Assembly: GCA_902620525.1 (NCBI GenBank)
Contig: CACNIK010000004.1
Span: forward strand, 58,354-122,353
Direction of reading: 5' to 3'
Length of the DNA stretch: 64,000 bases
From: an uncultured Pelagibacteraceae bacterium
GTDB taxonomy: Bacteria; Pseudomonadota; Alphaproteobacteria; Pelagibacterales; Pelagibacteraceae
Positions 2,060 to 25,596 of the stretch are shown here, piece after piece. Each line of letters starts with the position of its first letter. Within the stretch, counting starts at the first letter, position 1. The notes beneath the pieces are model-generated. The model worked only from the letters and a program-made list of their open reading frames with translations, made no database searches and had not been told where the DNA came from. A program made the position numbers and the translations under genes.

Positions 2060-2785
2060 ATGACTTATTGTGTTGGTATAAAAACAAACGAGGGCGTAGT
2101 TTTGGCATCGGACTCAAGAACTAATGCTGGTTTAGATAACGTCAATATTTACTCTAAGATGTTGACTTATGATGTAGGAGATAGAACAGTAATTATAGTA
2201 ACATCTGGAAATTTGGCTACCTCTCAAGCAGTTTTTAAATCATTAGAAAAAGATATAAAAAATAAAGATAGCTCGTTAAGTTTAAATACCTGTAAAGATT
2301 TTGAACAGATTGCATCTTATATTGGAAAACTCAATGTTAAACATTCATCACCTGATGGAGTAAATACGGACAGTTTAGTGCTAGGATCTACTTTTATTAT
2401 TGGAGGACAGATAAGAGGACAACAATTAGAACTGTACATGGTTTATCCACAGGGTAACTATATCAGACCTGCTGATAGTAAGCCTTATTTAGTAATAGGT
2501 GAAGTTAAGTACGGCAAACCAATTTTAGATAGAGTTATAACTCCAAGTGTTTCTATTGGGGATGCTTCAAGGTGTGCATTAATTTCTATGGACTCAACTC
2601 TTAAAAGTGATCTTACAGTTGGACCACCTATTGATATTGCTGTTTATAAAAAAGATGAAAAAAAAATTTCTTATTTAAAATGTCTGAATACTAGTGATGA
2701 TGATTACGCAAAAGTTTGTAACCAATGGTCAGATAAAGTTTTACAAGTTTTTGACACTTTCCCTAAATTTGATTGGGAAAAATAA
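2060..2785 (+). CDS. Anbu-type proteasome-like peptidase (T1 family)
   Basis: The protein starts MTYCVG, so removal of Met exposes the Thr nucleophile expected of Ntn hydrolases. The other catalytic positions are visible as Asp18 in ASDSRTNAG and Lys33 in YSKM. This N-terminus is characteristic of Anbu, the ancestral beta subunit / proteasome-type protease related to HslV, and the 241-residue length fits. Anbu proteins form open ring or lock-washer assemblies in the cytoplasm and have weak or unknown peptidase activity. It diverges from a circularly permuted ATP-grasp gene, a known partner, while the usual alpha-E and transglutaminase genes are absent nearby. There is no HslU- or ARC-like unfoldase in the window. 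Confidence 0.9.
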   Translation: MTYCVGIKTNEGVVLASDSRTNAGLDNVNIYSKMLTYDVGDRTVIIVTSGNLATSQAVFKSLEKDIKNKDSSLSLNTCKDFEQIASYIGKLNVKHSSPDGVNTDSLVLGSTFIIGGQIRGQQLELYMVYPQGNYIRPADSKPYLVIGEVKYGKPILDRVITPSVSIGDASRCALISMDSTLKSDLTVGPPIDIAVYKKDEKKISYLKCLNTSDDDYAKVCNQWSDKVLQVFDTFPKFDWEK

Positions 2786-6940: not shown

Positions 6941-7294
6941 TTATACGTACCTAAATACAACAATAAAATAACCAACGCAAATTATAGACGCTATCCATAG
7001 TAAACTGCCGACTAATCCGAGCCAAGCTAAATGAATAAACGCACTCCCTAGCAAAGAAACAAATAATCTGTCACCTCTAGTTGTGTCTAAACCTAAAATA
7101 CCTTTTCGGGGAGAGCCGCCTGGCACTTTTTTTTCCCAAATAAGCATTACTGTTATACATAATGCTATAAAAATGAAAAAAGCGGCTGTTTGCCATGTCC
7201 AAGCCATCCATGAAAATAAATCAAAATCAAAAAAACCTTTTTCTTTGGCTTTACCAACCTCACCCCATGTAGCAGCGTATAATTTTGTAAACAT
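6941..7294 (-). CDS. glpU: DUF2160 small membrane subunit of the glycerol ABC transporter (GlpU)
   Basis: 117 residues with three hydrophobic segments: about 32-53, 78-95 and 97-115. It belongs to the DUF2160 family of small inner-membrane proteins found with the GlpSTPQV glycerol importer of rhizobia. Its exact part in transport is not known. The start codon overlaps the stop of glpQ by one base, so expression is coupled, and gap follows after 5 bp. The family call rests on position and on the motif GSPRKGILGLDTTRGDRLF between the first and second membrane segments. Confidence 0.85.
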   Translation of the reverse strand: MFTKLYAATWGEVGKAKEKGFFDFDLFSWMAWTWQTAAFFIFIALCITVMLIWEKKVPGGSPRKGILGLDTTRGDRLFVSLLGSAFIHLAWLGLVGSLLWIASIICVGYFIVVFRYV

Positions 7295-8094
7295 TAAACT
7301 CTCCCCATTGCAAATCCTTTGGCAATATAATTTTTAACGAAGTAAATTACAATAGCTCCAGGAATAATTGTTAAAGTTCCTGCTGCAGCTAATAAACCAA
7401 GCTCATAGCCTGAGGTACTTGCAGTTCTTGTCATAGTAGCCGCAATTGGTTTTGCGGCTGTAGCCGTTAGCGTTTTAGCTAATAAAAGTTCAACCCATGA
7501 AAACATAAAACAGAAAAACATAGTTATTCCTATTCCTGCAGCGATTGTTGGAACAAAAATTTTAAAGAAAAACCTACCAAAAGAATACCCATCTACATAG
7601 GCTGTTTCGTCTAGTTCTTTAGGTACTGCAGACATAAATCCTTCTAATATCCAAACTGCTAAAGGTATATTAAATAAACAATGTGATAGAGCAACTGCTA
7701 TATGGGTATCAAACAAATTTACTGAAGAATAAAATTGAAAAAACGGCAAAGCAAAAACTGCTGGTGGAGCCATTCTATTTGTTAACAACCAAAAGAACAA
7801 ATGCTTATCACCTAAAAATTTATATCTAGAAAATGCATAAGCGGCTGGTAAAGCTGCGGCAACAGAAATAACAGTATTAAAAACAGTATAAGTAATTGAG
7901 TTAATGTAACCCATATACCAGGTGCTATCTGTAAAAATTTTTACATAATTTTCTGTTGTAAATTTTTGTGGCCATAAAGAATATGTATTTATAATTTCAG
8001 TAGTTGTTTTAAATGACATATTTATTAACCAATAAATCGGTAGCATTAAAAAAATTATATATAATGTAGGTACTAACCATTTATATTTTTTCAT
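7294..8094 (-). CDS. glpQ: Glycerol ABC transporter permease (GlpQ)
   Basis: 266-residue MalG-like permease with six membrane segments and the EAA loop ELDETAYVDGYSFGRFFFKIFVPT that docks onto the ATPase. The C-terminus ends in a short KGFAMGRV tail typical of this permease class. It overlaps glpP by 4 bp and glpU by 1 bp. Together with glpP it should form the membrane channel for glycerol fed by the GlpV binding protein. Specificity is inferred from the operon, which includes DUF2160 and glycerol kinase. Confidence 0.88.
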   Translation of the reverse strand: MKKYKWLVPTLYIIFLMLPIYWLINMSFKTTTEIINTYSLWPQKFTTENYVKIFTDSTWYMGYINSITYTVFNTVISVAAALPAAYAFSRYKFLGDKHLFFWLLTNRMAPPAVFALPFFQFYSSVNLFDTHIAVALSHCLFNIPLAVWILEGFMSAVPKELDETAYVDGYSFGRFFFKIFVPTIAAGIGITMFFCFMFSWVELLLAKTLTATAAKPIAATMTRTASTSGYELGLLAAAGTLTIIPGAIVIYFVKNYIAKGFAMGRV

Positions 8095-8957
8095 GACTGT
8101 GCCTCATTTTTCATCATTAAATTATAAAATACCCAACAAACTAAAAGTACGATAAAGAAATATATTAATGACATTGCAGCTGCTGGTCCTAAATCAAATT
8201 GACCCAAAGCCATTTTAACTAAGTCAATAGATAAAAATGCTGTAGTATTTCCTGGCCCACCTCCTGTTAGTACAAATGGCTCAGTGTAAATCATAAAACT
8301 ATCCATAAATCTTAATAAAATTGCTAAAGTTAAAACCTTTTTCATTTTTGGTAATTCAATATATCTGAAAGTTGCCCATCTACTAGCACCATCAATTTCT
8401 GCAGCTTGATAGTACGCAGGCTGAATTGAGTTAAGACCTGCATAAGACAAAAGAACAACTAAAGATGTCCAATGCCAAACATCCATTAAAATTGTTGTGA
8501 ACCATGCATCACCAGGTTGTTGGGTAAAATTATAATCAAAACCCATTGCATTTAATGAGTGACCAAGAAAACCAATATCTGGGAGTGCAAATATATTCCA
8601 CATTGCTCCAACAACATTCCAAGGAATTAGAAGCGGCATAGACATTAAAATTAAACAAACTGGTACACCCCATCCTTTTTTTGGCATTGTAAGTGCAATA
8701 GCAATTCCTAAAGGTATTTGGATTAAAAGTATTATAAAAGTAAAAGCAAATTGCCTTCCTAATGAAGCATGAAATCTTTCGGATAACAAGATTTGTTTAA
8801 ACCACCTTGTACCTTCCCAAGCGAATACGTTGTTTCCAAAAGTTTCTTGAAATGAATAATTTACGACTGTCATTAAGGGAATAGCTGCATTAAATGCAAC
8901 AAGAACGAATACGGGAATTACAAAATACCAAGCTTTTTGATTAATAGTTTTATTCAT
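8091..8957 (-). CDS. glpP: Glycerol ABC transporter permease (GlpP)
   Basis: 288-residue MalF/UgpA-like permease. After a first membrane segment (about 12-34) it has a short periplasmic loop, five further segments and the EAA loop YYQAAEIDGASRWATFRYIELP. GGPGNTTAFL in the last third is a common block in this class. It overlaps glpT by one base at the start and glpQ by 4 bp at the end, so all five transport genes glpSTPQU are in one translationally coupled string. Confidence 0.88.
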   Translation of the reverse strand: MNKTINQKAWYFVIPVFVLVAFNAAIPLMTVVNYSFQETFGNNVFAWEGTRWFKQILLSERFHASLGRQFAFTFIILLIQIPLGIAIALTMPKKGWGVPVCLILMSMPLLIPWNVVGAMWNIFALPDIGFLGHSLNAMGFDYNFTQQPGDAWFTTILMDVWHWTSLVVLLSYAGLNSIQPAYYQAAEIDGASRWATFRYIELPKMKKVLTLAILLRFMDSFMIYTEPFVLTGGGPGNTTAFLSIDLVKMALGQFDLGPAAAMSLIYFFIVLLVCWVFYNLMMKNEAQS

Positions 8958-10021
8958 TATTCTATAATCCAGTTATCTCCATAAACATAAGTATATTTTT
9001 GATTGAAAGTTATATGAGCGCTTCCACTTGGAATTTCAGTAGAGGCTTTGGATAATATTTTAATAGTACCCCCATTACATTCTGTATCAATAATTTTATG
9101 TCTTCCAGTATTACTTACTCTTTTTATATTAACTGGAATCCCATCTTTTGAAAAATTTATAAATTCAGGTCTAATGCCTATTTGAGTTTTGCTAAAATTT
9201 GATTTTTTTATAGCTTTGTGACTTTGTATTTTTTGACCACTGAAATTTATTTCGCCATTTTTAATTTCACAAGGAAGTATATTCATTCCAGGTGAACCAA
9301 TAAAATGTCCAACAAAAGTATGTTTGGGTTTCTCAAATAATTCAACAGGAGTTCCAGTTTGAACGATTTGACCTTCATGCATGACTACAACTTGATCTGC
9401 AAAAGTTAGGGCTTCTGTTTGATCGTGTGTCACATAAATCATAGTACGATTAATTTTTTGGTGTAGTTCTTTTAATTTAGATCTTAAAACCCACTTTAAA
9501 TGTGGATCTATAACAGTTAATGGTTCATCAAACATAATTACATTTACATCTGATCTGACAAGTCCTCTACCTAAGGAAATTTTTTGTTTTCCATCAGCTG
9601 TTAAACCTGATGCTCTGTTATTTAATGTAGATGTCAATTCAAGCATCTTAGCAATTTCTTTAACTTTTGATGCGACTTCTGAGTCTGAAAGACCTCTATT
9701 TTTTAATGGGAAAGCTAAATTATCATATACAGACATGGTGTCATAAATGACTGGAAACTGAAATATTTGAGCAATATCTCTTTCAACGGGGTTAAGTGAT
9801 GTCATATCTTTATCATCAAATAAAACACTGCCCTTTGTTGGTTTTAATAAGCCTGAAACAATATTTAATAAAGTTGTCTTTCCACAACCAGATGGACCTA
9901 ATAATGCGTAAGCACCTCCGTCTTTCCAATCAATATTAACATCTCTTAAAGCCCAATCAGTATCGTTATTCTGTTTTTCTAAATAACTATGACTTAAATC
10001 TCTTAATGTAATTTTAGCCAT
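8957..10021 (-). CDS. glpT: Glycerol ABC transporter ATPase (GlpT) with degenerate signature motif
   Basis: 354 residues: nucleotide-binding domain (1-235) followed by an OB/TOBE-like regulatory domain. Walker A is GPSGCGKTT, the Q loop IFQFP, Walker B IMFDEP and the switch His is in YVTHDQTEA. The ABC signature, normally LSGGQ, reads LTADGKQ, and the D loop is LTVIDP instead of LSNLDA. Thus the protein keeps its own hydrolysis residues but would offer a poor signature to its partner. GlpS shows the opposite pattern. It overlaps glpS by 8 bp and glpP by 1 bp. Confidence 0.9.
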   Translation of the reverse strand: MAKITLRDLSHSYLEKQNNDTDWALRDVNIDWKDGGAYALLGPSGCGKTTLLNIVSGLLKPTKGSVLFDDKDMTSLNPVERDIAQIFQFPVIYDTMSVYDNLAFPLKNRGLSDSEVASKVKEIAKMLELTSTLNNRASGLTADGKQKISLGRGLVRSDVNVIMFDEPLTVIDPHLKWVLRSKLKELHQKINRTMIYVTHDQTEALTFADQVVVMHEGQIVQTGTPVELFEKPKHTFVGHFIGSPGMNILPCEIKNGEINFSGQKIQSHKAIKKSNFSKTQIGIRPEFINFSKDGIPVNIKRVSNTGRHKIIDTECNGGTIKILSKASTEIPSGSAHITFNQKYTYVYGDNWIIE

Positions 10022-11078
10022 TGTTTACCAATCTGTTATTTTGATCAAAATATAAAAACTCATCCGTGTTCATATATAGTTTAGTATCTTCTCCAACATT
10101 TTTTTGCTGGGTGCCATTAGACAATGAAACCCAGTTTAAATTTCCGTTAGTAAAGTGAATTAAGCTTTCTGATCCACTAAGTTCAGAAATTTGAACTTTA
10201 CCGTTAATCTCGACTGAATTATTTCCCTCTTTATAAGTAGTAATATTATGGGGTCTTATACCAATTTTATATGTGCCATCTTTAATTTTTGCTGATGATT
10301 TCCATTGAACATCATTATCTGTAAATTTACAATTATCACCTCTTTTTGTGATTTCAGCTATATTCATTGGTGGATCACTAAAAACTTTAGCTGAAATTAA
10401 ATTTTCAGGCTTATTATAAACCTCTAGAGTTTTACCATACTGAATAACTTTCCCTTCTAATAATGTCGCTGTATTTCCCCCAATCATTAAGGCATCTGAT
10501 GGCTCTGTTGTTGCATAAACAACAATGCAATCTCTATCTTCAAATAGTTTCGGTAATTCTTCTCTTAGTTCTTCTCTTAATTTAAAATCTAAATTTGCCA
10601 AAGGCTCATCTAATAAAATTAAATCTGAGTCCTTTACTAATGCTCTAGCAAGAGCAGTTCTTTGTTGTTGTCCGCCTGATAATTCATCAGGTTTTTTATT
10701 TAACATTGCTGATAATTTTAAAAGTTCAGCCACCTTTCCTACTCTTTGTTTAATCTCATCATCTTTAACTCCTGTAATAACCAAGGGGGAAGCAATATTT
10801 TCGTAAACTGTATAATTTGGATAATTTATAAATTGCTGATAAACCATAGAACAATTTCTTTTTTGTACTTTCATACCTGTAACATTTTTTCCATCAAACC
10901 ATATCTCACCTGAAGTTGGTTTATCTAACCCTGCCATTATTTGCATTAAAGTTGTCTTCCCAGCTAGTGTGGAACCGAGAAGTACATTTATTGTATTTTT
11001 CTTTAATTTAAGACTTGTAGGATGAATATGAGTATCTATTCCAACTTTTTTTTCTACATTTTTTAATTCTAGACTCAT
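10014..11078 (-). CDS. glpS: Glycerol ABC transporter ATPase (GlpS) lacking the switch histidine
   Basis: 354 residues with the same layout as GlpT: nucleotide-binding domain, then TOBE-like domain. Walker A is the unusual GSTLAGKTT, the signature is a perfect LSGGQQQR, Walker B is LLDEPLANLD, but the H loop reads YATTEPSDA, so the switch His is replaced by Thr. In a GlpS-GlpT heterodimer, the site made by GlpT Walker motifs and GlpS signature would be intact and the other degenerate. It follows the binding-protein gene after a 68-bp gap holding a hairpin, which should lower its expression relative to glpV. Confidence 0.9.
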   Translation of the reverse strand: MSLELKNVEKKVGIDTHIHPTSLKLKKNTINVLLGSTLAGKTTLMQIMAGLDKPTSGEIWFDGKNVTGMKVQKRNCSMVYQQFINYPNYTVYENIASPLVITGVKDDEIKQRVGKVAELLKLSAMLNKKPDELSGGQQQRTALARALVKDSDLILLDEPLANLDFKLREELREELPKLFEDRDCIVVYATTEPSDALMIGGNTATLLEGKVIQYGKTLEVYNKPENLISAKVFSDPPMNIAEITKRGDNCKFTDNDVQWKSSAKIKDGTYKIGIRPHNITTYKEGNNSVEINGKVQISELSGSESLIHFTNGNLNWVSLSNGTQQKNVGEDTKLYMNTDEFLYFDQNNRLVNNG

Positions 11079-11099
11079 AATTTAAAATTTAGTTTTAAA

Positions 11100-11126
11100 A
11101 AAAGGGGGCAGCAAGTGCCCCCTTTT
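11100..11126 (-). terminator. Intra-operon hairpin (partial terminator) between glpV and glpS
   Basis: An 11-bp stem (AAAAGGGGGCA / TGCCCCCTTTT) with a 5-base loop. Read on the minus strand it is followed by seven Ts, the form of a Rho-independent terminator. It lies 20 bp beyond the glpV stop and before glpS, so it probably protects the glpV message and reduces readthrough into the permease and ATPase genes. It is strikingly GC-rich for this genome. Confidence 0.8.
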
Positions 11127-11146
11127 CAATTTAGATTAACCTCTTA

Positions 11147-12877
11147 CTATTTCCAAGCTTTCGCGTACGGAACAGTTTTTCCTTGAGGTTTCTCATCACG
11201 TTTAGCTTTTGGTGAACCTTTCTTATTTAACCAATAAGAAGCTTCTCTTGGTTTATTAAGTCTTGGTCCACATCCACCGTATGCATTGCTACCTTTGTCA
11301 GCAGCTTCCATACGAGACATTACTAAGTCCATCTCTTCTGCAAGACGATCCATAGCTTGTTGTGGAGTAAACGCACCTGAGTTTACATCTCCAATTTGTT
11401 GCCACCAGATTTGTGCAAGTTTCGGATAGTCCGGAACATTTACACCTGTTGGTGACCAAATATTTCTGTTGTTTGATCTGTAGAACTCAACTAGTCCACC
11501 AAGTGCTGGTGCTCTTTCTGTGAAAGATTTGTGGTCTATTGAACTATCTCTAATGATAGTTAAACCTACGTGACTTTTCTTAAGATCTACTGTTTTTGAT
11601 ACAACGAATTGAGCGTACAACCATGCAGCTTTTCTATTTTTAACTGGTGTAGACTTAAATAAAGTCCATGATCCAGCATCTTGATATCCAAGCTTCATGC
11701 CTTCTTCCCAATAAGGTCCTTTTGGTGATGGACCCATTCTCCATAACGGCATTCCTTTATCATCAACAACTTTGTTGTTAGGATTTTTTCCTACTAAAGA
11801 AGCTGTGAATGCTGTGTACCAGAAGATTTGCTGAGCAACGTTTCCAGAAGATAGTGACGGTAGAGACTGATAGAAGTCCATAGCCGCAGCACCTGGAGGT
11901 GCGTAGTTTCTTAACCACTCATCCCATTTTCTGATTGCGTATACAGCAGCAGGACCATTTGCAGCTCCACCTCTTGTTACTGAAGCTCCAACAGGGTTAC
12001 AAGAACCTTTTTCCATTCTTATTCCCCACTCGTCCACTGGTATTCCATTAGGTTTTCCAACATCACCTGCTCCAGCCATTGATAACCACGCGTCAGTCAT
12101 TCTCCAACCTAAGTCAGGAGCTCTTTTACCGTAGTCCATGTGACCGTATATTCTTACACCATCAATATTTTTCACATCTTCTGAAAAATATTTTGCGATG
12201 TCTTCATATGCAGACCAATTTAAAGGTACACCTAAATCGTAACCGTATTTGGCTTTAAAACCTTTTTTGATTTCAGGTCTGTCAAACCAATCTTTTCTAA
12301 ACCAATAAAGGTTAGCAAATTGTTGGTCAGGCATTTGGTATAGGTCGCCATCTGGACCTGTAGTAAACTGTTTACCAATAAAATCGTCTAAGTCTAAAGT
12401 TGGCAAAGTAACATCTTTACCTTCTCCAGCCATCCATTTCGTTAGGTTTACAGCTTGTTGCATTCTAGCGTGAGTACCAATCAAATCTGAGTCATTGATG
12501 TACGCATCGTAAATACTTACGTTAGTTTGCATCTGTGTTTGTACTGCCATTACTACGTCACCTTCTCCAAGTAACTGATGATTTACTTTAATCCCAGTAA
12601 TTTCTTCAAAAGCTTTTGTTAAAACTTTTGATTCATACTCGTGAGTAGGAATAGTTTCTGACAATACTTTAATAGACATTCCTTTGAACGGCTTTGCAGC
12701 ATCGTGAAACCATTGTAGTTCTTTCTCTCTTTCTTTTGCAGAAAGCGTAGAAAGACTAAACTCACCATTAGACCATTTCTTAATTGCAGCCATGTGACCG
12801 TCTGCAATCGCATTCGAAATGGTAAGTATAGAAAATGAAACAGCAACAGCTATTATAGTTTTCAATGTTTTAAACAT
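11147..12877 (-). CDS. glpV: Glycerol ABC transporter substrate-binding protein (GlpV)
   Basis: 576 residues. A signal peptide occupies about residues 1-25 (basic start, hydrophobic core, cleavage near SNAIA-DG). The rest is a family 1 extracellular binding protein, longer than the usual 420-450, as in rhizobial GlpV. It carries repeated Trp/Tyr-rich blocks (WFRKDWFDRPE, YGHMDYGKRAPDLGWR) and a GGCGPRLN segment near the end. It should bind glycerol in the periplasm and hand it to GlpPQ. Codon use is noticeably tidier (more G/C third positions) than its neighbours, consistent with high expression, as is the strong ribosome-binding site. Confidence 0.9.
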   Translation of the reverse strand: MFKTLKTIIAVAVSFSILTISNAIADGHMAAIKKWSNGEFSLSTLSAKEREKELQWFHDAAKPFKGMSIKVLSETIPTHEYESKVLTKAFEEITGIKVNHQLLGEGDVVMAVQTQMQTNVSIYDAYINDSDLIGTHARMQQAVNLTKWMAGEGKDVTLPTLDLDDFIGKQFTTGPDGDLYQMPDQQFANLYWFRKDWFDRPEIKKGFKAKYGYDLGVPLNWSAYEDIAKYFSEDVKNIDGVRIYGHMDYGKRAPDLGWRMTDAWLSMAGAGDVGKPNGIPVDEWGIRMEKGSCNPVGASVTRGGAANGPAAVYAIRKWDEWLRNYAPPGAAAMDFYQSLPSLSSGNVAQQIFWYTAFTASLVGKNPNNKVVDDKGMPLWRMGPSPKGPYWEEGMKLGYQDAGSWTLFKSTPVKNRKAAWLYAQFVVSKTVDLKKSHVGLTIIRDSSIDHKSFTERAPALGGLVEFYRSNNRNIWSPTGVNVPDYPKLAQIWWQQIGDVNSGAFTPQQAMDRLAEEMDLVMSRMEAADKGSNAYGGCGPRLNKPREASYWLNKKGSPKAKRDEKPQGKTVPYAKAWK

Positions 12878-12974: not shown

Positions 12975-14456
12975 TTAATTAATGAGTGCTCTTTTAATAG
13001 CCTTTGACCAGCCTAACAGAAGGGATTTTCTGTCGCTGTTTTTCATTTTAGGAGTAAATTTTTTCTCAAGGCTCCAATTTTTAGAAATATCTTTTAAAGA
13101 TTTATACACTCCAATTTTTAATCCAGCCATGAATGCTGCGCCTAGTGCTGTAGTTTCATGAACTTTAGGTCTATAGACTTTGACGTTCACTATGTCTGAT
13201 AAAAATTGTGAGAACCAATTATTCATGACCATTCCTCCATCTACTTTAACCATTCTTGGTCGCAAACCATCGTGTTTCATTGCTTCAAAGAGGTCATGTG
13301 TCTGATATGCCACTGACTCTATCGTGGCCCTTACTATTTCCTTCGGACCTGTATCTCTTGTTAATCCACTTAAAACTCCTCTTGAGTTTTGATTCCAATA
13401 TGGCGCACCCATACCTGTAAAGGCTGGAACTAAATAGACATCTTTATTATCTTTTAAAGACTTTAAAATCTTTTCAGTTTCATAAGCTTTTTTAAAGAAT
13501 TTCATTCGATCTCTTAGCCACTGAACACCTGCTCCTGCGATAAAAATAGATCCTTCCATAGCATAAGTAGTTTTTCCGTTAATTCTATATCCAATTGTAG
13601 TGAGTAGTCTATTTTTGGAATAAATTTTTTTGTAACCAGTATTTAATAATACAAAAGCTCCTGTTCCATAAGTGCTCTTTAATGAGCCTGGTTCAAAACA
13701 GCATTGACCAATTGATGCAGACTGTTGATCTCCCACAACTCCAGTAATTGGTATCGATTTGCCTGTAATTGATGGATGTGTAGAACCATAATCATCAGCG
13801 CAATTTTTTACTTCAGGAAGAATATGTTTTTTAATTTTTAATATATTTAAGATTGTATCGTCCCATTTGTTTGTTGATATATTAAAAATCATAGTTCTAC
13901 TTGCGTTTGTTGCATCGGTTGCATGGACTTTGCCTTTGGTTAATCTCCAAATCAAGAAGCTATCGATTGTTCCAAAAAGAAGTTGTTTTTTATTCATCAA
14001 TTTTCTGGCTAATGAGACATTATCTAATATCCATTTTATTTTTGTTCCTGAAAAATATGAGTCAATTGGCAAGCCTGTTTTATTGAAAATAAGAGTTTCT
14101 TTGTTTTGTTTTTTTAACTTTTTACAATATTCAGCCTGTCTACGGTCTTGCCAAACTATGGCTTTATAAATTGGTTTGCCCGTTTTTTTATCCCATAAAA
14201 CTGTAGTCTCTCTTTGATTGGTAATTCCAATTGCTAATATCTTTCCCTTTAATTTTTTAGCTTTTAAAATAACATTTTTTAAAACTTTTTTTGTAGTATT
14301 CCAAATTTCTTCTGGGTTATGCTCTACCCATCCACTTTTTGGAAAATATTGTGTAAATTCTTTTTGAGAAGAAAAAACTGGCTTACCTTTTAAATCAAAA
14401 AGTATCGCTCTATTTGAAGTGGTTCCGGCGTCTATAGAAATAATAAATTTTCTCAT
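12975..14456 (-). CDS. glpK: Glycerol kinase
   Basis: 493 residues, standard length for GlpK. FGGY-kinase motifs are clear: SIDAGTTSNRAILFD at the start, TNQRETTVLWD, VWQDRR, VGDQQSASIGQCCFEPG and the C-terminal KVDGGMVMNNW. It phosphorylates glycerol to sn-glycerol-3-phosphate with ATP in the cytoplasm, trapping imported glycerol. It sits between gpsA (22 bp upstream) and the transporter operon (97 bp downstream), all on the minus strand, giving a complete uptake-phosphorylation-oxidation unit. Confidence 0.96.
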   Translation of the reverse strand: MRKFIISIDAGTTSNRAILFDLKGKPVFSSQKEFTQYFPKSGWVEHNPEEIWNTTKKVLKNVILKAKKLKGKILAIGITNQRETTVLWDKKTGKPIYKAIVWQDRRQAEYCKKLKKQNKETLIFNKTGLPIDSYFSGTKIKWILDNVSLARKLMNKKQLLFGTIDSFLIWRLTKGKVHATDATNASRTMIFNISTNKWDDTILNILKIKKHILPEVKNCADDYGSTHPSITGKSIPITGVVGDQQSASIGQCCFEPGSLKSTYGTGAFVLLNTGYKKIYSKNRLLTTIGYRINGKTTYAMEGSIFIAGAGVQWLRDRMKFFKKAYETEKILKSLKDNKDVYLVPAFTGMGAPYWNQNSRGVLSGLTRDTGPKEIVRATIESVAYQTHDLFEAMKHDGLRPRMVKVDGGMVMNNWFSQFLSDIVNVKVYRPKVHETTALGAAFMAGLKIGVYKSLKDISKNWSLEKKFTPKMKNSDRKSLLLGWSKAIKRALIN

Positions 14457-14478: not shown

Positions 14479-15525
14479 TCACCTGAATAACTCCCATTTA
14501 AGATTAAGTTTTTTATCCTCTACAATAGCATTGATCATGCCAAGCATTAAAGGTAATTTTTTTTCATCAAAATCCTTATTAACTTTTTTTGCGATTTCTT
14601 TTGCCAAATCAGCTCCCTCGACTGTAACATTTTCCATTTTTGTTTTTTTTGCTTCTGAGAATGTTAAGCCTTCCCCAATATAAGATCCCATTTTAGCATT
14701 TCTGCCACCTCCTGAACTTACGTAAAGATCTCCCAGGCCTGCTAAGCCTTTTACTGTTTCCTTTTTTCCTTTTAAGTGTTCTACAAATACTTCCATTTCA
14801 TATATCGATTGTTTTATTAATGCTGAAGATGTATTCAAATAGTTTTTTTCTCTTACGTCATTTGAGATGTTGTCACTACATAAGCCCTTCGCGGCACCAA
14901 CTGCCATGGAAAATATATTTTTTATTGCAGCTGAAACTTCTACACCATTTATGTCGTCTGAAAAAGAAGTGTGATAATAGCTAGTGTTTAACATATCGGC
15001 AATTTCTTTTGCTGTTTTAATATCTTCATTAGCTATAACAACACTGCTATGAACTCGATTAGCTAATCCTGCGGCAAGACACGGACCTCCTACAGCAGAT
15101 ATATTAACTTTATTTATTCCATTTGCAGATAATAATCTTTTTAGCTTATCAACCAGCAACTCATAATTATTATTGAAAATACTCAATCCTTTTGTGAGCA
15201 TAAGTATATTTGGAATATTTTTATCTTTAAAAATTTTACTTAATTGTTCTGAAACCCATTCAATACCTTTAGAACTTATTCCTAAAACAATTAAATCAGC
15301 ACCGTTATTTAGTAAACTGTTAAAATTATCAAATTTATAAATTTTGATTTTCTTATCTAATTTTACATTCAACCCGGGATGAAAATTTTCATTAGCTTTT
15401 ACACTATCAATAAAGTCATTTTCTAAATGCGTGCCTACAATGTTTACATCATGATTATTATCTATACAGGGTATAGCAAAAGCTGATCCCATAGCGCCAG
15501 CACCGATGATAATGATCTTTGACAT
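14479..15525 (-). CDS. gpsA: NAD(P)-dependent glycerol-3-phosphate dehydrogenase
   Basis: 348 residues with the Rossmann motif IIIGAGAMGSAFAIP at the N-terminus, MLTKGL, AVGGPCLAAGLA and the conserved lysine region EVSAAIKNIFSMAVG, and GLAGLGDLYVSSGGGRN further on. The family interconverts glycerol-3-phosphate and dihydroxyacetone phosphate and usually supplies glycerol-3-phosphate for lipids. Here it directly precedes glpK, and no glpD-type flavin enzyme is in the window, so it may run in the oxidative direction for glycerol use. It starts 2 bp after the trkH stop. Confidence 0.9.
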   Translation of the reverse strand: MSKIIIIGAGAMGSAFAIPCIDNNHDVNIVGTHLENDFIDSVKANENFHPGLNVKLDKKIKIYKFDNFNSLLNNGADLIVLGISSKGIEWVSEQLSKIFKDKNIPNILMLTKGLSIFNNNYELLVDKLKRLLSANGINKVNISAVGGPCLAAGLANRVHSSVVIANEDIKTAKEIADMLNTSYYHTSFSDDINGVEVSAAIKNIFSMAVGAAKGLCSDNISNDVREKNYLNTSSALIKQSIYEMEVFVEHLKGKKETVKGLAGLGDLYVSSGGGRNAKMGSYIGEGLTFSEAKKTKMENVTVEGADLAKEIAKKVNKDFDEKKLPLMLGMINAIVEDKKLNLKWELFR

Positions 15526-17896: not shown

Positions 17897-19105
17897 CTAT
17901 CCTTTAACACTACCAGATGTAAGGCCACTAACCAAATATTTTTCAAAATATACAAAAATAAAAAGTACTGGTAGGGTAACTATAACAGATCCTGCCATTA
18001 AATATTGGCGAGGAGTTTCTGCATCCCCGCTTAAATATTGAATAGCCCTCGATAAAGTAAAAGATTTAGGGCTATCTAAAAACATCAAAGAAAAAAGAAA
18101 TTCATTCCATGCAATCATAAAAACATATAAAGCGACTGATGAAATCGCTGGTAAACTTAATGGAATAATAATTTTTAAAATAATGCCAAACCAATTTTGA
18201 CCATCCATAATACCTGCATCTTCAATTTCTTTAGGAATACTTTTAAAATACCCTTGCAACATATAAATGGCCACTGGAAGAGTCGTAGCGGTATAAACTA
18301 TCAATAGACCAAAAATTGAGTTTCTTAAACCCAGTTGACTAAATACAGTATACAATGGAATTACTAAAACTATCGCTGGAAACATATAAATAATTAAAAT
18401 TGAAGTTGATAAAAAATTTTTACCGAAGAAATTTAACCTAGCAACTGCATAAGCTGCAGGAATTGCAAATAACAATGTAACAATAACTGTTCCGATAGAA
18501 ACAGCTGAACTAATCAATATGTATCTACTAAAGTTATAGGTTTCAAAAATTACAAAATAAGATTTAAATAATTCTGTCAAACTTTTAGAAAAGTCTAAAC
18601 TAAAATCGAGTGGATTGACTAATAAAGCAATTTGAGTTTTAAAGCTTGTTACCAACATAATATAGAACGGAAATAAAATTACAAAAGCAAAAAAAACAAT
18701 TCCAAATAAAGTGGTAAAATCAAAAATAATTTTTTCGGACATGAAATCTTCGGTTAAAGATTTTATATTATATTTTTTTAATTTGTTCGTGAAAAATAAA
18801 ATTGTTAAGAAAACTCCAAATATATACCAATATGGAGATGATTCATTAAAGTAAAAATATAAAAATGAAAATAAAAATGATAATGAAAATATTTTAATTA
18901 AGTGATTAATTCTGTTTCCAATTAACACACATAATAAAGATAGAATAATTCCACTAAAAAAGTTTCCTGTGATATTAAGATTTGTAAAGTTTAAACCCTG
19001 AAGTGTAGACATAATTTTCCAAATTGACAAAATACATGTAAGAAAAAAAGATGAACTGACCAAAAATATTGTTATAGATTTAAATTTCATTTGCTTTTTT
19101 TCCAA
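17897..19105 (-). CDS. Sugar ABC transporter permease, MalG type with extra N-terminal membrane domain
   Basis: 402 residues against about 280 for ordinary MalG-like permeases. The C-terminal 270 residues are a normal permease with the EAA loop EIEDAGIMDGQNWFGIILKIIIPLSLP. The first 130 residues add about four hydrophobic segments (near 9-29, 46-62, 70-85 and 92-106) that I cannot assign to a known family. It overlaps the upstream permease gene by 26 bp from the track start, or 11 bp if the ATG at 19090 is used. It should form the channel with the 419-residue permease. The likely substrate is an alpha-glucoside, judged from the linked phosphorylase. Confidence 0.85.
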   Translation of the reverse strand: MEKKQMKFKSITIFLVSSSFFLTCILSIWKIMSTLQGLNFTNLNITGNFFSGIILSLLCVLIGNRINHLIKIFSLSFLFSFLYFYFNESSPYWYIFGVFLTILFFTNKLKKYNIKSLTEDFMSEKIIFDFTTLFGIVFFAFVILFPFYIMLVTSFKTQIALLVNPLDFSLDFSKSLTELFKSYFVIFETYNFSRYILISSAVSIGTVIVTLLFAIPAAYAVARLNFFGKNFLSTSILIIYMFPAIVLVIPLYTVFSQLGLRNSIFGLLIVYTATTLPVAIYMLQGYFKSIPKEIEDAGIMDGQNWFGIILKIIIPLSLPAISSVALYVFMIAWNEFLFSLMFLDSPKSFTLSRAIQYLSGDAETPRQYLMAGSVIVTLPVLFIFVYFEKYLVSGLTSGSVKG

Positions 19106-20339
19106 TTAATCTAAAATAAATAATCATAAATGCTAAAAGCAACATAACTATAACAATTGAAACAGCTGAACCCATACCAATATCTGAAACAGCAAACCCT
19201 TGCTGATAAACATTTATAGGCAAAGTTCTTGTTCCGGATGCTCCACCAGTTAATAAAAAAATATCTTCAAATTTATTAAAGTTCCAAATAAATCTAATCA
19301 TAAACAAAATAGAAATTATCGCTGTAATTTGAGGAAGTGTAATATGTATAAATTTTTTAACTGGACTTGCTCCATCTACTTCGGCTGCTTCATACAAACT
19401 TTTTGGAATAGCTTGTAATCTTGCTAAGATGAATAGAAAAGCTAGAGGAAAATAACGCCAAATCTCAAAAAATATTACTGTCGTTAATGCCAGCCTTAAT
19501 TTGAAATCAAATCCCAAAATGCTTATTGTAATATATTTTTGGCCTAATAAATTAATTGGTGACTCAATAATATTAAAATTAACCAATAGAGCATTTAAAG
19601 TTCCACTATTAGGATCAAGTAATAATGTCCAAGTATAAGCTAATGCAACAACAGGACCTACATATGGAAAAAGAAGAATGCCACGCATATAAGATCTCCC
19701 TTGAATGTTTTGATTTACCAATTGCGCTGCTAAAATTCCAAAAATTATTGCACCAACTGTACCAAAAAAAGTGAAGTAAAATGTAGTTAAAAGTAAATCA
19801 ATAAAATTATTTTCGTAAAAAACTTTTTTAAAATTTTTTAGAGTAAAATTCGTTGTTAGTAATGGATTATCTGATTTTCCACTTAAAATTGGTTTTTGAG
19901 ATTTTATTGTTTCTTTTTTAATTTTTTCACCATCGATATTTTTTAATATTATTTCAAAATTTTCTTTATATTTCGCTTCCCAATCTCCAAGTTCACAAAT
20001 GATCTTTTTAGATTTAAAATTACATCTTGAATCTAAATTTAATATTGAAGTATTTTTGGGAAATTTATCTTGGAATTTAACATCTCTTATTTCTTGAATT
20101 AATGAACTATTTCTTAATTTATAAACAATTTTTAATTCTGACCCATCATCAGAAATAGATTTAACGATTTTTTTTGCTCTAGGTTCTGGAATTCTTATAT
20201 CTTTTAACTCAATATCTTTAAAACTTATCCAAATATTTGCAAATATTGGAAATAATACTATTGCGAAAACTAATAAAACTGCAGGTAAGACTAAAGTGTA
20301 AGCAGTTCTTTTTTCTAATTTTGATAATGTGTTACTCAT
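19080..20339 (-). CDS. Sugar ABC transporter permease, MalF/UgpA type with periplasmic DUF11-like insert
   Basis: 419 residues. Membrane segment 1 spans about 13-38; residues 41-165 are a hydrophilic insert facing the periplasm; segment 2 begins near 181, and a normal permease core follows with the EAA loop YEAAEVDGASPVKKFIHITLP and FLLTGGASGTRTLPI. The insert reads like a DUF11 / Ig-like repeat: an Asn-turn (YKLRNSS), DKFPKNTSI in place of the D-x-LP-x-G element, and paired cysteines at 106 and 115 around CELGDW. E. coli MalF also has an Ig-like periplasmic loop, but between later segments. The insert may contact the binding protein. It lies 49 bp after the binding-protein gene. Confidence 0.87.
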   Translation of the reverse strand: MSNTLSKLEKRTAYTLVLPAVLLVFAIVLFPIFANIWISFKDIELKDIRIPEPRAKKIVKSISDDGSELKIVYKLRNSSLIQEIRDVKFQDKFPKNTSILNLDSRCNFKSKKIICELGDWEAKYKENFEIILKNIDGEKIKKETIKSQKPILSGKSDNPLLTTNFTLKNFKKVFYENNFIDLLLTTFYFTFFGTVGAIIFGILAAQLVNQNIQGRSYMRGILLFPYVGPVVALAYTWTLLLDPNSGTLNALLVNFNIIESPINLLGQKYITISILGFDFKLRLALTTVIFFEIWRYFPLAFLFILARLQAIPKSLYEAAEVDGASPVKKFIHITLPQITAIISILFMIRFIWNFNKFEDIFLLTGGASGTRTLPINVYQQGFAVSDIGMGSAVSIVIVMLLLAFMIIYFRLIGKKANEI

Positions 20340-20388: not shown

Positions 20389-21711
20389 TTAAAACTTAGC
20401 TAATTCAGCGTTTATTTTTTTAACCGCTTCGTCAACTGAGATTTGATCATCTATATATTCTCTAGTGATTCTATTTAAGAACTGAGAATTAATGATTTTC
20501 GATGCTCTAGAAAGTTCACCTTCTTTAACTCCCCATCTGTTCGCGGTATCTAAACCGGCAACAATGTTATCAATAACATCTGCAGAATAAAGATCAGTCA
20601 ATGGTGCCTTTCTATCAACACCTACAGGTAATTTACTCCATGCTTTCGTGTAAGCACTTGGATCGCTCTTATTTCCTCTTCTTACAGGAAATTTTCCCTC
20701 AGGAGCAATTCCTAATGTTGCTGTATACCCCTCACTCATTGAGTATTCTATGAATTTTTTAGCTTCATCAGTATCTGCATCTGCTGTTATTCCAAAGTAT
20801 CTTACATCGGCCCAAGCAGCTCCTTTTTTATTATTTGGTCCACTAAAATTAGTAATGAAACCAGTTTTAGATGCCAGTTCTGGTGATGTAGGGTCACTAT
20901 TTATTGTTGGAGGAGCAGAATCTCTTAATCCTGCTAATTCATCCATTATAAATGGAGACCAAATAACCATTGGTGTTTTTCCTGCGAAATATAAAGCTCT
21001 AGATTGTTTCCAAAACAATTCTCCAGGAGGACTTGCTTTGGCAATTACTTTGTAAAATTCTAAAGAATTCTTTAAAGCTTTACCTTGCTTTTTAGTTCCA
21101 CCCTTTTTAACAAAGTTAACCCCATTTGCTAAAAGCACATGCTCAAGCACTTGACTCATAAAGTTTTCATCTGTTTTTGTAGCCGCAACAAATCCAAACA
21201 TATCATTACTTGATAATGTATTAACGGCTTTTACTATGTTTGCATATGATGTTGGTGGTTCTAAACCAGCTTTTGCAAATAGATCTTTTCTGTAAACAAC
21301 CATCTGTGTCCATCCATCTACTGGAACGGCTGCAATTTTTCCACCTTGTTTAGCCATATTTAATGCACCTGGTGCAAATGTTTTTTTTCCTAGAGATTTA
21401 ACAACGTCGTTATTTGCATCTATATCTAATATGCCTGCTTCAGCCCATGGTAAAACGTATTGCAAAGTATGATAAATCACATCTGGGAGCTCTCCTGCTG
21501 CTGCTGCTGCGGTAGCTCTTGTTCCAAGGTCTTTTTCTTCAACGGGTATTACTTCAACGCTAATACCTGTTTTTGCTTCAAAAGCCTTAGCCATTGTTTT
21601 TTGTTTTTCCATTCTTTCTGGTTGAACTTCAGTAGTCCAGAACTTTATTCCAGCGTAACTAGAGTTAATAAAAAATGAAAAAGCAAATATGTATATTAAT
21701 ATTTTTCTCAT
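20389..21711 (-). CDS. Sugar ABC transporter substrate-binding protein
   Basis: 440 residues, family 1 extracellular solute-binding protein. A signal peptide covers about 1-20 (MRKILIYIFAFSFFINSSYA, cut before GIKFW). The mature part has the typical ELPDVIYHTLQY region, an aromatic binding element WTQMVVYRKDLF, and PVRRGNKSD near the C-terminal lobe. No lipobox Cys is present, as expected for a Gram-negative soluble binding protein. It is the first gene of a minus-strand operon with both permeases and diverges from the ATPase gene. Substrate is not known; the island's phosphorylase suggests a glucosylated small polyol or acid. Confidence 0.9.
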   Translation of the reverse strand: MRKILIYIFAFSFFINSSYAGIKFWTTEVQPERMEKQKTMAKAFEAKTGISVEVIPVEEKDLGTRATAAAAAGELPDVIYHTLQYVLPWAEAGILDIDANNDVVKSLGKKTFAPGALNMAKQGGKIAAVPVDGWTQMVVYRKDLFAKAGLEPPTSYANIVKAVNTLSSNDMFGFVAATKTDENFMSQVLEHVLLANGVNFVKKGGTKKQGKALKNSLEFYKVIAKASPPGELFWKQSRALYFAGKTPMVIWSPFIMDELAGLRDSAPPTINSDPTSPELASKTGFITNFSGPNNKKGAAWADVRYFGITADADTDEAKKFIEYSMSEGYTATLGIAPEGKFPVRRGNKSDPSAYTKAWSKLPVGVDRKAPLTDLYSADVIDNIVAGLDTANRWGVKEGELSRASKIINSQFLNRITREYIDDQISVDEAVKKINAELAKF

Positions 21712-21716
21712 TGTGA

Positions 21717-21722
21717 CCCCCT
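21717..21722 (-). promoter_or_regulatory. Strong Shine-Dalgarno site of the sugar-binding protein
   Basis: AGGGGG on the minus strand, 5 bases before the ATG at 21711. Like the glpV site, it is an unusual G-run for this genome and suggests high translation of the binding protein. Confidence 0.6.
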
Positions 21723-21748
21723 ATATATTCTATTTATAAAAAAACCTA

Positions 21749-21765
21749 CCAATATTTGCCAATAT
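21749..21765. promoter_or_regulatory. Tandem CCAATAT direct repeat in the divergent control region
   Basis: CCAATAT occurs twice exactly 10 bp apart (21749 and 21759), one DNA turn, in the 167-bp region between the divergent binding-protein and ATPase genes. The spacing suits a regulator contacting one face of the DNA. No regulator gene is linked, so this is only a candidate operator. Confidence 0.25.
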
Positions 21766-21803
21766 AATAAACCCTTTAAAAAAAATATGGCAGGTGTACA
21801 AAT

Positions 21804-21831
21804 TTTACATTAACGTTGTTTTTTGTATAAA
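21804..21831 (+). promoter_or_regulatory. Candidate sigma70 promoter for the sugar ATPase-phosphorylase pair
   Basis: TTTACA, a 16-bp spacer and TATAAA on the plus strand, 48 bp before the ATG of the ATPase gene. Read by eye. Confidence 0.35.
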
Positions 21832-21878
21832 ATAAATTCTAAAACATTAAAATTAAACTCTGGGTTGAAAACTTATTT

Positions 21879-22931
21879 ATGGCTTTTATTGAACTAAAAA
21901 ATATCGAAAAAAGTTTTGGATCAAACAAGGTAATAAATAAATTTGATATTAAAATAAAAGATGGAGAATTTATTGTTTTAGTAGGTCCATCAGGTTGCGG
22001 AAAATCTACACTTTTAAGAATGATCTCAGGTTTAGAAACAGTCGATAAGGGAGAAATTTATTTAGATAACAAGATTATAAATAATCTAGTTCCTTCTAAA
22101 CGTGAAATTGCAATGGTTTTTCAATCCTATGCTTTGTATCCACACATGAGTGTTTTTGAGAATATGGCTTTTGGCTTAAAAATGGAAAAAATTTCAAAAA
22201 GTGAAATTAATCAAAAAGTTAATAATGCTGCTGCAACACTTCAAATAGAGGATTTACTTGAAAGGAAGCCTAAACAGCTATCAGGAGGACAAAAACAAAG
22301 AGTTGCAATCGGAAGAGCTATCACAAGGAGTCCTAAAGTTTTCTTATTTGATGAACCATTATCAAACCTAGATGCTGCTTTAAGATCTGAAATGAGAGTT
22401 GAAATATCTAAACTTCATAAAAAAATGAATTCAAATATAATCTATGTAACGCATGATCAAGTTGAAGCGATGACATTAGCTGATAGAATTGTAGTTCTAA
22501 ACAAAGGAAATATCGAACAATATGGAACACCTAATGAGATTTATTCAGATCCAAATAATATTTTTGTTGCAGAATTTATTGGATCTCCAAAAATGAATAT
22601 AATTAAGATTAATAAAGACTACATTGTTAATTCAAATACTTTTCAATTATTCAATAATAAAATATCTTTTAATAATTTTAAATTTGAAGATGAGATTTAT
22701 ATAGGTATTAGGCCGGAGGATATAAGCTTGGAAAGCAATCGCGAAATCCAGTTAGAAGTAAAAATTGAACTTGTAGAAAATTTGGGTTTTGAAAAAATTA
22801 TTTATTCTAAGATTTCAAATAATCAAATTATAATTAAATCATCTAAAAATATAAATAATGACTCACTCAAAGTTTCATTTTCAAAGGAAAATGTATTTCT
22901 TTTTAATAAGGATAAAAAAAGGATTAGATAA
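21879..22931 (+). CDS. Sugar ABC transporter ATPase (MalK/UgpC type)
   Basis: 350 residues. All nucleotide-binding motifs are standard: Walker [11 protein letters not shown] loop [11 protein letters not shown], signature LSGGQKQR, Walker [14 protein letters not shown] loop [16 protein letters not shown] regulatory domain follows ([12 protein letters not shown]). It would act as a homodimer energising the two permeases encoded divergently. In contrast to GlpS and GlpT, nothing is degenerate. The phosphorylase gene follows after 26 bp, so transport and first catabolic step are probably co-transcribed. Confidence 0.92.
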
Positions 22932-22957
22932 GTTCATTTAAATAAAAAATATTATTA

Positions 22958-24679
22958 ATGTTAGCTCAGAATTACAAAAAAAAGATAAGATCAAAACTAA
23001 ATAATATATACAAAAGATCTTTACCTAAAAATGATATTTATAAGTTTGAAGATGAAATTATTCAAATAATTAAAAATTTTAATAAAAAAAATTCAAAAAG
23101 AAAAAAAAATATTTCTGAGAAAACTTCTTTAGTGATTTGTTACGGAGATAGTATTTATTTAAATAAAAAAAGTTCAATTTCATTATTTAAAACTTTTTTT
23201 CAAAAAAAATTAAAAAAATATTTTAATACAATACACTTTTTACCCTTTTATCCTTCGAGTAGTGATAGTGGTTTTTCTGTAAAAGATCATTATAAAATTG
23301 AAAAAAAACTTGGTAGTTGGTCTGATATAAAAAAAATTTCAAAATCTAATGACATTATGGCTGATATGGTCATTAATCACTCATCGGCAAGAGGTCTGTG
23401 GTTTAGAAACTTTTTAAAAAATAAAAGTCCAGGAAAAAATTATTTTTTAAAAATTGACTCTAAATTTAATACTTCAAAAGTAGTTCGACCAAGAGATCAT
23501 AAATTATTAAAAAAAATTAATTTTTTTAACAAAAAAGAATATCTTTGGAGAACCTTTAGTTCAGATCAATTGGATCTAAATTTTAAAAATCCTTCTGTTT
23601 TATTAAGATTTATAAAAATAATGATTAATCTTATTAATCATGGTGTAACTATTTTTAGGCTGGATGCAATTGCATATCTCTGGAAAGAGAGTGGTACAAA
23701 ATGCATTAATTTGAAACAAACGCATGAAATAATTAAACTTTTAAAGCAAATTAGTATTTCACTAAATGTGGAAACCACAATTGTTACTGAAACAAATTTG
23801 CCTGAAAAAGAAAATCTCAGTTATTTTGGTAAAAATGATGAGGCTAATTGGATTTATAATTTTTCTCTCCCACCATTATTGATTCATGCGTTTTTATTTG
23901 AAAATAGTTCATACTTAAATCAATGGAGTAAAAAACTTCCGATTGCAAAAAAAGGAAATAGTTATTTAAATTTTATATCATCTCATGATGGAATAGGTAT
24001 TAGACCCACAGAGGGAATATTTAAGAAAAAAACATTAAACAACTTTCTTAAAAGATTAAAAAAAAATGGATCAAAATTTTCATATAGAAAAGTAAAGAAT
24101 AAGGCAAAAAAAGTCTATGAAGCAAATATAACTGTTTTCGATGCGCTTAAAAAATCAGATACTGATTCTAAAGGTGAATTTCTTTTAGAAAGATACGTTT
24201 CTGCACATTCTATTATTATGTCTTTTGAAGGTATCCCCGCAGTATATTTTAACTCCTTGTTTGGAAAATCTAATGATGAAGCTAAATATATAATAACTGG
24301 AAATAAAAGAGACGTTAACAGATATAAATGGAATTATAAAAATATTTCAAAAAAACTAGATAATAAAAATTCCAAACAAAGTATATTTTTTCAGAAAATT
24401 TCCAATCTGCTTAGTATTAGAAGAAAACAAAAAGCATTTCATCCAAATGCCTCAAGACAGAATATAAACCTTGGCTCAAAAATTTTTTCATTCAAAAGAA
24501 TAAGCATTGATAGAAAACAAACTGTAATTTGTATTACAAATTTGTCATCAATAACCCAAAAAGCGCACCTTGATAAAGTTTATTACAATTGGAAAAATTT
24601 AATTGGATCTAAAATTAAAGTTAACAATAAGCTTTTAATATTAAAACCCTTTGAAACAATTTGGTTAAGCAATAGATAG
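22958..24679 (+). CDS. GH13_18 glucoside phosphorylase, probably glucosylglycerate or glucosylglycerol phosphorylase
   Basis: 573 residues, sucrose-phosphorylase family. Catalytic residues are readable: nucleophile Asp236 in FRLDAI, acid/base Glu278 in VTETN, stabiliser Asp344 in SHDG; FLPFYPSSSDSGFSVKDH and ADMVINHSS are the conserved first blocks. THEIIKLL, TETNLPEKENLSYFG and NFSLPPLLIHA match the branch that holds glucosylglycerate phosphorylases (E. coli YcjM type) and glucosylglycerol phosphorylases, not true sucrose phosphorylase. These enzymes use phosphate to release glucose-1-phosphate and leave glycerate or glycerol. It is intracellular (no signal peptide) and lies next to a dedicated ABC importer. 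Family is sure; the acceptor is not. It is very Lys-rich, as are other proteins here. Confidence 0.85.
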   Translation: MLAQNYKKKIRSKLNNIYKRSLPKNDIYKFEDEIIQIIKNFNKKNSKRKKNISEKTSLVICYGDSIYLNKKSSISLFKTFFQKKLKKYFNTIHFLPFYPSSSDSGFSVKDHYKIEKKLGSWSDIKKISKSNDIMADMVINHSSARGLWFRNFLKNKSPGKNYFLKIDSKFNTSKVVRPRDHKLLKKINFFNKKEYLWRTFSSDQLDLNFKNPSVLLRFIKIMINLINHGVTIFRLDAIAYLWKESGTKCINLKQTHEIIKLLKQISISLNVETTIVTETNLPEKENLSYFGKNDEANWIYNFSLPPLLIHAFLFENSSYLNQWSKKLPIAKKGNSYLNFISSHDGIGIRPTEGIFKKKTLNNFLKRLKKNGSKFSYRKVKNKAKKVYEANITVFDALKKSDTDSKGEFLLERYVSAHSIIMSFEGIPAVYFNSLFGKSNDEAKYIITGNKRDVNRYKWNYKNISKKLDNKNSKQSIFFQKISNLLSIRRKQKAFHPNASRQNINLGSKIFSFKRISIDRKQTVICITNLSSITQKAHLDKVYYNWKNLIGSKIKVNNKLLILKPFETIWLSNR

Positions 24680-24753: not shown

Positions 24754-25596
24754 TTAACCTTTTACAACTCTGTGTTTTTGTTTTCCTAATTTATCTATTC
24801 CCAGGATAAGTTCTTCTCCACCTTTTAAAAATTTAGGTGGTTTCATATTTTCCCCGACGCCATTAGGAGTTCCGGTACAGCAGATGTCTCCTGGGTACAA
24901 AGTCATGCAGTGACTCATGTAAGAAACAAGTTGTTCTATATTGAATATCATATCTTTCGTGTTTCCAGTTTGCATTCTCTCACCATTTACATCTAAAAAC
25001 ATATTAAGATTATTGTAATCTTTAACTTCCTCTTTTGTAAGAATATATGGTCCTATTGGCCCAAAGGTGTCAAAACCTTTTCCTTTATCCCAAGTAAGAC
25101 CCTTATTTTTTTGAAATTCTCTTTCACTTACATCTGTAACTAGAAAAAAACCAAGAACATAATCGAGGGCATTTTTTTCCTCCACATATTTTGCTTTTTT
25201 TCCTATCACAAAACCAATTTCAACTTCCCAGTCTGTATGGTTTGAGTTTTTTGGAACTTCTATATTATCATTTGGTCCGACGATACAATTAGTAAATTTT
25301 GAAAATATAATTGGTTCTTTAGGAATGGGTAAATTTTGTTCCGTTGCATGATCTTTAAAATTCAAGCCAATACCCAAAAATTTTGAAGGATTTTTAACAC
25401 AAGCTCCTATTCTAGATCCAGAATCAAGAGTTGGTAAATCTTTAATATTTAATTTTTTTATTTTTTCAATAGTTTCAAAGTTTAAACTTTCAGGGTTGAG
25501 ATCAGAAATTGCGCTGGATAGATCTTTATATGAACCATCTTTATCAATTATTGCTGGTTTTTCTTTGCCTAATTCACCTATTCTACAGAGTTTCAT
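24754..25596 (-). CDS. Fumarylacetoacetate hydrolase family protein
   Basis: 280 residues, FAH fold at about 70-278. The motifs FLGIGLNFKDHA, PIIFSKFTNCIVGP, DWEVEIGFVIG (acidic metal ligands) and CCTGTPNGVG are typical. Members cleave or decarboxylate 2-keto acids such as acylpyruvates, or hydrate 2-oxopent-4-enoate. The precise substrate cannot be told. It is the first chromosomal gene outside the repeat-bounded island and is followed, in the upstream direction, by two glycosyltransferase genes on the same strand (4 bp gap). Confidence 0.88.
   Translation of the reverse strand: MKLCRIGELGKEKPAIIDKDGSYKDLSSAISDLNPESLNFETIEKIKKLNIKDLPTLDSGSRIGACVKNPSKFLGIGLNFKDHATEQNLPIPKEPIIFSKFTNCIVGPNDNIEVPKNSNHTDWEVEIGFVIGKKAKYVEEKNALDYVLGFFLVTDVSEREFQKNKGLTWDKGKGFDTFGPIGPYILTKEEVKDYNNLNMFLDVNGERMQTGNTKDMIFNIEQLVSYMSHCMTLYPGDICCTGTPNGVGENMKPPKFLKGGEELILGIDKLGKQKHRVVKG

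Follow-up and report, generated by a model that had tools for sequence, protein, structure and literature searches.

A predicted glucosylglycerate importer of SAR11 bacteria that is paired with either a GH13_18 phosphorylase or a GH63 hydrolase

Glucosylglycerate phosphorylases (GGaP, EC 2.4.1.352) of glycoside hydrolase subfamily GH13_18 have been characterised from E. coli (YcjM), Meiothermus silvanus and Spirochaeta thermophila. A review of the subfamily lists two marks of these enzymes, the motif (T/S)ETN at the tip of beta-strand 5 and a Glu replacing Gln in loop A, and states that the characterised members of the clade do not cleave sucrose (PMC7178133). In E. coli the enzyme is encoded in the ycjMNOPV cluster beside a binding protein, two permeases and an ATPase; the ligand of YcjN, the best-studied related binding protein, is unknown (PMC11543891). 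The same predicted substrate is handled by GH63 enzymes, which have an unrelated fold and act by hydrolysis, not phosphorolysis: the Thermus mannosylglycerate hydrolase and GgH of Mycolicibacterium hassiacum. The latter (catalytic residues D182 and E419) hydrolyses glucosylglycerate and, less efficiently, mannosylglycerate (PMC6608630).

The DNA analysed here is a stretch of 64,000 nucleotides (the window) from a 1.09-Mb, 96% complete assembly of a SAR11 (Pelagibacteraceae) genome. It contains the following cluster:

17897-19105, minus strand: importer permease B (MalG/UgpE-like, by profile matches)
19080-20339, minus strand: importer permease A (MalF/UgpA-like, by profile matches)
20389-21711, minus strand: substrate-binding protein, YcjN-like, 440 aa; best PDB matches 7v09, 8ula and 8vqk
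21712-21878: divergent intergenic region of 167 bp between the binding-protein and ATPase genes
21879-22931, plus strand: ABC importer ATPase of the MalK/UgpC type, 350 aa; NF008653 above cut-off, Pfam ABC_tran
22958-24679, plus strand: predicted GGaP (GH13_18), 573 aa; D236, E278, D344; TETN at 277-280; loop A Glu388

The first-pass annotation had described the open reading frames of 21879-24679 as an ATPase and a co-directional, intracellular enzyme. Both were found at these positions, 26 bp apart, and no signal peptide was evident in the 573-aa enzyme. The binding protein, in which a signal peptide was recognised by eye, and both permeases are encoded on the opposite strand, so that the cluster is divergent. 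Profile matches identify the importer as a CUT1-type sugar ABC set (MalK/UgpC ATPase, two permeases and extracellular binding protein). The 167-bp divergent region contained no more promoter-like sites than shuffled sequences, no known RNA elements were found in the cluster, and the genome yielded no second GH13 gene. An FAA-hydrolase family gene (24754-25596, minus strand; near NF053535 but below its cut-off) converges on the GGaP gene at a distance of 74 bp, a position that is not conserved in more distant relatives.

The arrangement resembles that of E. coli, whose ycj binding protein is related to the SAR11 one (8vqk, 1e-21). Unlike the SAR11 versions, the ycj cluster also encodes a kojibiose phosphorylase and 3-keto-glucoside enzymes, whereas SAR11 versions carry GpgS and GpgP or have them in the same genome. 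A glycerol-3-phosphate (Ugp) importer standing beside an unrelated enzyme would account for an ATPase scoring above the UgpC subfamily cut-off and for UgpA being the best NCBIfam match of permease A. However, ATPases of the UgpC and MalK types are closely related, the permeases stayed far below the Ugp cut-offs (UgpA 107 of 335 bits, UgpE 61 of 297 bits), and the binding protein had no UgpB match, its nearest structures being YcjN-like. We regard this reading as scarcely conceivable.

The GH13 enzyme gave a Pfam Alpha-amylase match above cut-off, matched YcjM with an E-value of about 1e-95 (34% identity), and in a sequence search matched GH13_18 structures of the PDB far above chance (E 1e-45), its identity to solved sucrose and glucosylglycerol phosphorylases being about 28-29%. 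This sequence search of the PDB returned no structure of a GGaP. D236, E278 and D344, named as catalytic in the first-pass annotation, occupy the same alignment columns as their counterparts in YcjM and the solved GH13_18 phosphorylases. Both published GGaP signatures are present: residues 277-291 read TETNLPEKENLSYFG, beginning with T277, E278, T279 and N280, and loop A reads KKVYEAN with E388 at the position occupied by Gln in the solved sucrose and glucosylglycerol phosphorylases. These five residues were invariant in 97 of 97 aligned homologues. With the characterised GGaPs the SAR11 enzyme shares the catalytic residues, TETN and the loop A Glu, as well as length, an N-terminal extension and the association with GpgS, GpgP and glycerate kinase. 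In the tree, in which YcjM is the characterised GGaP (the M. silvanus and S. thermophila sequences are not among the rows), the enzyme grouped with SAR11 and SAR116 sequences as a distinct branch of the clade containing YcjM, apart from four solved outgroup chains that are represented by partial rows (aligned stretches only) at the end of a long branch, both of which weaken this grouping. One of these chains, 9j1u, is a glucosylglycerol phosphorylase by its PDB title. Assignment of the enzyme to GGaP is thus well supported by sequence and genomic context.

Sucrose phosphorylases belong to GH13_18 too, and the enzyme matched their equivalog TIGR03852 at 174 bits; in addition, the lowest Foldseek E-values of its AlphaFold model (mean pLDDT 91.7, pTM 0.91) were to amylosucrases and sucrose hydrolases, slightly below those to GH13_18 phosphorylases (TM about 0.85 by target length), probably helped by N-terminal helices which are present there as well. 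A sucrose phosphorylase or amylosucrase-like enzyme served by a sucrose importer would fit these matches. Against this, the TIGR03852 cut-off is 334 bits, the sucrose-type loop A N(L/V)D(I/L/V)YQ is absent and the beta5 motif differs, the tree placed the enzyme with YcjM and not with sucrose phosphorylases, GH13_18 phosphorylases outscored amylosucrases in the PDB sequence search (160 versus 103 bits), and sucrose is not cleaved by characterised members of the clade (PMC7178133). Sucrose as the substrate is highly improbable, as the first-pass annotation had already judged.

The annotation had, on the other hand, left the choice between glucosylglycerate and glucosylglycerol, citing sequence blocks common to both phosphorylases. 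The likeness held for the glucosylglycerate enzymes (TETN) but not for the glucosylglycerol enzymes, which have PEVH. The Marinobacter glucosylglycerol phosphorylase (7xdq, 9j1u) has the same GH13_18 fold (TM 0.85 by target length) and catalytic residues, but is about 28% identical and carries a VGAIYQ loop and PEVH where the SAR11 enzyme has a YE loop and TETN; in the alignment neither VGAIYQ nor PEVH was present in the 573-aa enzyme. Two genes near the cluster bear on the same question:

12975-14456: glycerol kinase (GlpK)
14479-15525: GpsA-like gene

Both are found to one side of the cluster and could use glycerol released, together with glucose 1-phosphate, from imported glucosylglycerol; phosphorylases for this compound are of the same subfamily and were among the best PDB sequence matches. 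However, besides the missing loop signature and the tree position, GlpK and GpsA flank the cluster in close relatives only (not in L039-L042), and beside relatives it is GpgS that is found, not glucosylglycerol synthesis genes, although the latter were not directly queried. GlpK and GpsA also adjoin another ABC operon (7294-12877, minus strand; two permeases, two ATPases and a 576-aa binding protein), which we take to resemble a GlpSTPQV-type glycerol importer. The neighbouring glycerol kinase, which looks like part of that separate importer, was therefore rejected as a sign of glucosylglycerol. Cleavage of glucosylglycerol is very unlikely, and of the two substrates named by the annotation glucosylglycerate is the predicted one.

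Genes for the synthesis of glucosylglycerate and for the use of its products were found in the same genome:

2-481, minus strand: GpgP-like phosphatase (HAD-IIB, MPGP family), first 160 codons (5' part), the rest lying outside the window
G000:C4:56802-58016: GpgS, following GpgP outside the window; full-length NF040724 match
50916-52358, plus strand: phosphohexomutase (PMM/PGM-like), candidate for converting glucose 1-phosphate to glucose 6-phosphate

A D-glycerate-3-kinase-like (GLYK-like) gene, with D-glycerate 3-kinases among its best PDB matches, is located on G000:C1; it was found instead of Class I and II glycerate kinases (PF02595, PF13660), which are absent from the genome. GpgS and GpgP lie about 21 kb from GGaP and the glycerate kinase that far or farther, whereas these genes are adjacent in most relatives. 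In the 80 closest GTDB loci the GGaP neighbourhood contained GpgS in 77, GpgP in 72 and a homologue of the genome's own kinase in 34, most commonly in the order kinase-GpgP-GpgS-GGaP. Marine plasmid-borne relatives of GGaP adjoin a glycosyl transferase, which matches NF040724 (glucosyl-3-phosphoglycerate synthase) over its full length at 360 bits (strict cut-off 700), and a HAD-IIB phosphatase matching the mannosyl-3-phosphoglycerate phosphatase family. Within SAR11, locus L047 has a run ATPase-GpgP-GpgS-GGaP, from which the genes of the same binding protein and permeases diverge. In locus L054 the ATPase, binding-protein, permease and GGaP genes form a single run, GpgS and GpgP not being beside it. 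Judged from its gene content, the window's genome probably makes glucosylglycerate as well as breaking it down; since GpgS- and GpgP-like genes are present, the enzyme may serve to recycle solute made by the cell itself, besides the imported one.

GpgP is adjoined by genes for a 480-aa protein (510-1952, minus strand) and a divergent 241-aa proteasome-like protein (2060-2785, plus strand), and both recur near GpgS or GGaP in L047, L050 and L051. A Pseudoalteromonas locus (L033:8868-10607) encodes a glycerate-kinase-like domain fused to a GpgP-like phosphatase, which brings two opposing reactions of glucosylglycerate metabolism together in a single protein.

The distribution of the importer was determined in 297 genomes of the SAR11 family. 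The binding protein was present in 120 of them, 82-100% identical across nearly all, and many of these genomes had no GGaP. In those the gene following the permeases encodes a 420-aa GH63 protein, so that a GH63 enzyme takes the place of GGaP at the same importer. It matched the glucosylglycerate hydrolase family NF047898 at 287 bits (strict cut-off 550; GpgS and GpgP likewise stayed below their strict NCBIfam equivalog cut-offs, with 360 of 700 and 157 of 164.75 bits), and the structure of the Thermus mannosylglycerate hydrolase at 310 bits versus 170 bits for the mycobacterial GgH. The alignment shows the catalytic D182 and E419 of M. hassiacum GgH to be conserved in the GH63 protein. GGaP was detected in 51 of the 297 genomes, GH63 in 93 and both in none, many of the genomes being incomplete, which blurs counts of absence; the window's genome has no GH63 hydrolase. 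One or the other enzyme was found in 113 of the 120 binding-protein genomes and in 61 of the 63 genomes with GpgS. The genes were linked: GGaP lay within 8 kb of the binding protein in 23 of 28 genomes and GH63 in 80 of 85, and most exceptions were contig ends or split assemblies.

The binding-protein tree required at least three enzyme swaps, and a single clade of GGaP-linked binding proteins was rejected (p-AU 2.5e-44). This tree test was preferred over Fisher tests on genome counts because the latter ignore relatedness. Glucosylglycerate is the substrate common to the two unrelated enzyme families and therefore the best candidate ligand of the importer; two unrelated enzymes, one substrate and one importer make up the best evidence for its cargo. 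From the swap and the linkage we infer that the importer carries glucosylglycerate. It may also carry mannosylglycerate, because the GH63 protein is nearer to mannosylglycerate hydrolase than to GgH.

In four genomes (L073, G140, G216 and G262) the GH63 gene was located within 8 kb of GpgS, and in the last three of these the importer was not detected; GH63 thus replaces GGaP in the synthesis cluster too. In L039 (G077), which belongs to another genus, the binding protein is 98% identical to that of the window, compared with about 89% for same-genus GH63 genomes, which suggests that importer and GGaP were transferred together. In G139 and G288 the GH63 frame is broken by stop codons, possibly by decay or by assembly error.

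No copy of this importer (binding protein) was detected in 23 of the 51 GGaP genomes; hence the link of the enzyme to it is not a strict one. Together with the presence of GpgS and GpgP in the window's genome, this would suit an enzyme that recycles only the cell's own glucosylglycerate next to an importer with some other cargo. However, GpgS was not detected in 77 genomes that have the importer together with GGaP or GH63, among them G063, a single contig of 99% completeness; the enzyme was swapped behind one conserved importer; and in L054 GGaP shares a single run with the genes of the ATPase, the binding protein and the permeases. We consider recycling alone unlikely.

Judging from sequence and gene context, we prefer the reading, with a probability of roughly 0.84, that this cluster serves the import of 2-O-alpha-glucosylglycerate (GGA) and its phosphorolytic breakdown. 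The first-pass proposal of an osmolyte-glucoside phosphorolysis enzyme paired with an ABC importer is thus upheld as a prediction, by GH13_18 membership and by the gene cluster. GGA would be captured by the periplasmic binding protein and carried into the cytoplasm by the two permeases and the ATPase. There GGaP would convert GGA and inorganic phosphate to alpha-glucose 1-phosphate and D-glycerate by a retaining two-step mechanism, with D236 as nucleophile and E278 as acid/base. Glucose 1-phosphate would enter metabolism through the phosphohexomutase and D-glycerate through the D-glycerate-3-kinase-like enzyme. GGA made as the cell's own osmolyte by GpgS and GpgP would probably be recycled by the same GGaP. 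Phosphorolysis avoids one hexokinase ATP, and to this extent the saving of one ATP claimed in the annotation stands; a kinase is, however, probably required for the glycerate half.

No other heterotroph of the surface ocean is as abundant as SAR11, and to our knowledge most of its importers have no assigned substrate. Glucosylglycerate is a sugar-acid used by marine cyanobacteria and other plankton against salt stress. It is a main compatible solute of Prochlorococcus (PMC3686209, PMC11631117). Synthesis genes have been noted in offshore SAR11 genera in a 2025 study (PMC12636525); in the open-access literature searched, no description was found of glucosylglycerate import by SAR11, nor, as far as that search shows, of a phosphorylase and a hydrolase alternating at one importer of these bacteria. 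The 77 genomes with importer and enzyme but no detected GpgS, some of them nearly complete, look like consumers, while scavenging and recycling are both possible roles in the window's genome, which has the synthesis genes too. We lean slightly towards a picture in which glucosylglycerate is a traded currency of the plankton: many non-making SAR11 lineages would import it via one conserved high-affinity transporter and split it with a phosphate- or water-using enzyme exchanged repeatedly between lineages, and others, like that of the window, would both make and import it. The analysis offers a specific predicted ligand for a binding protein present in 120 of 297 genomes of the family. The alternation of phosphorylase and hydrolase would serve as a natural experiment on whether one ATP saved makes a difference to energy-lean cells, and through the importer carbon might pass directly from Prochlorococcus to SAR11.
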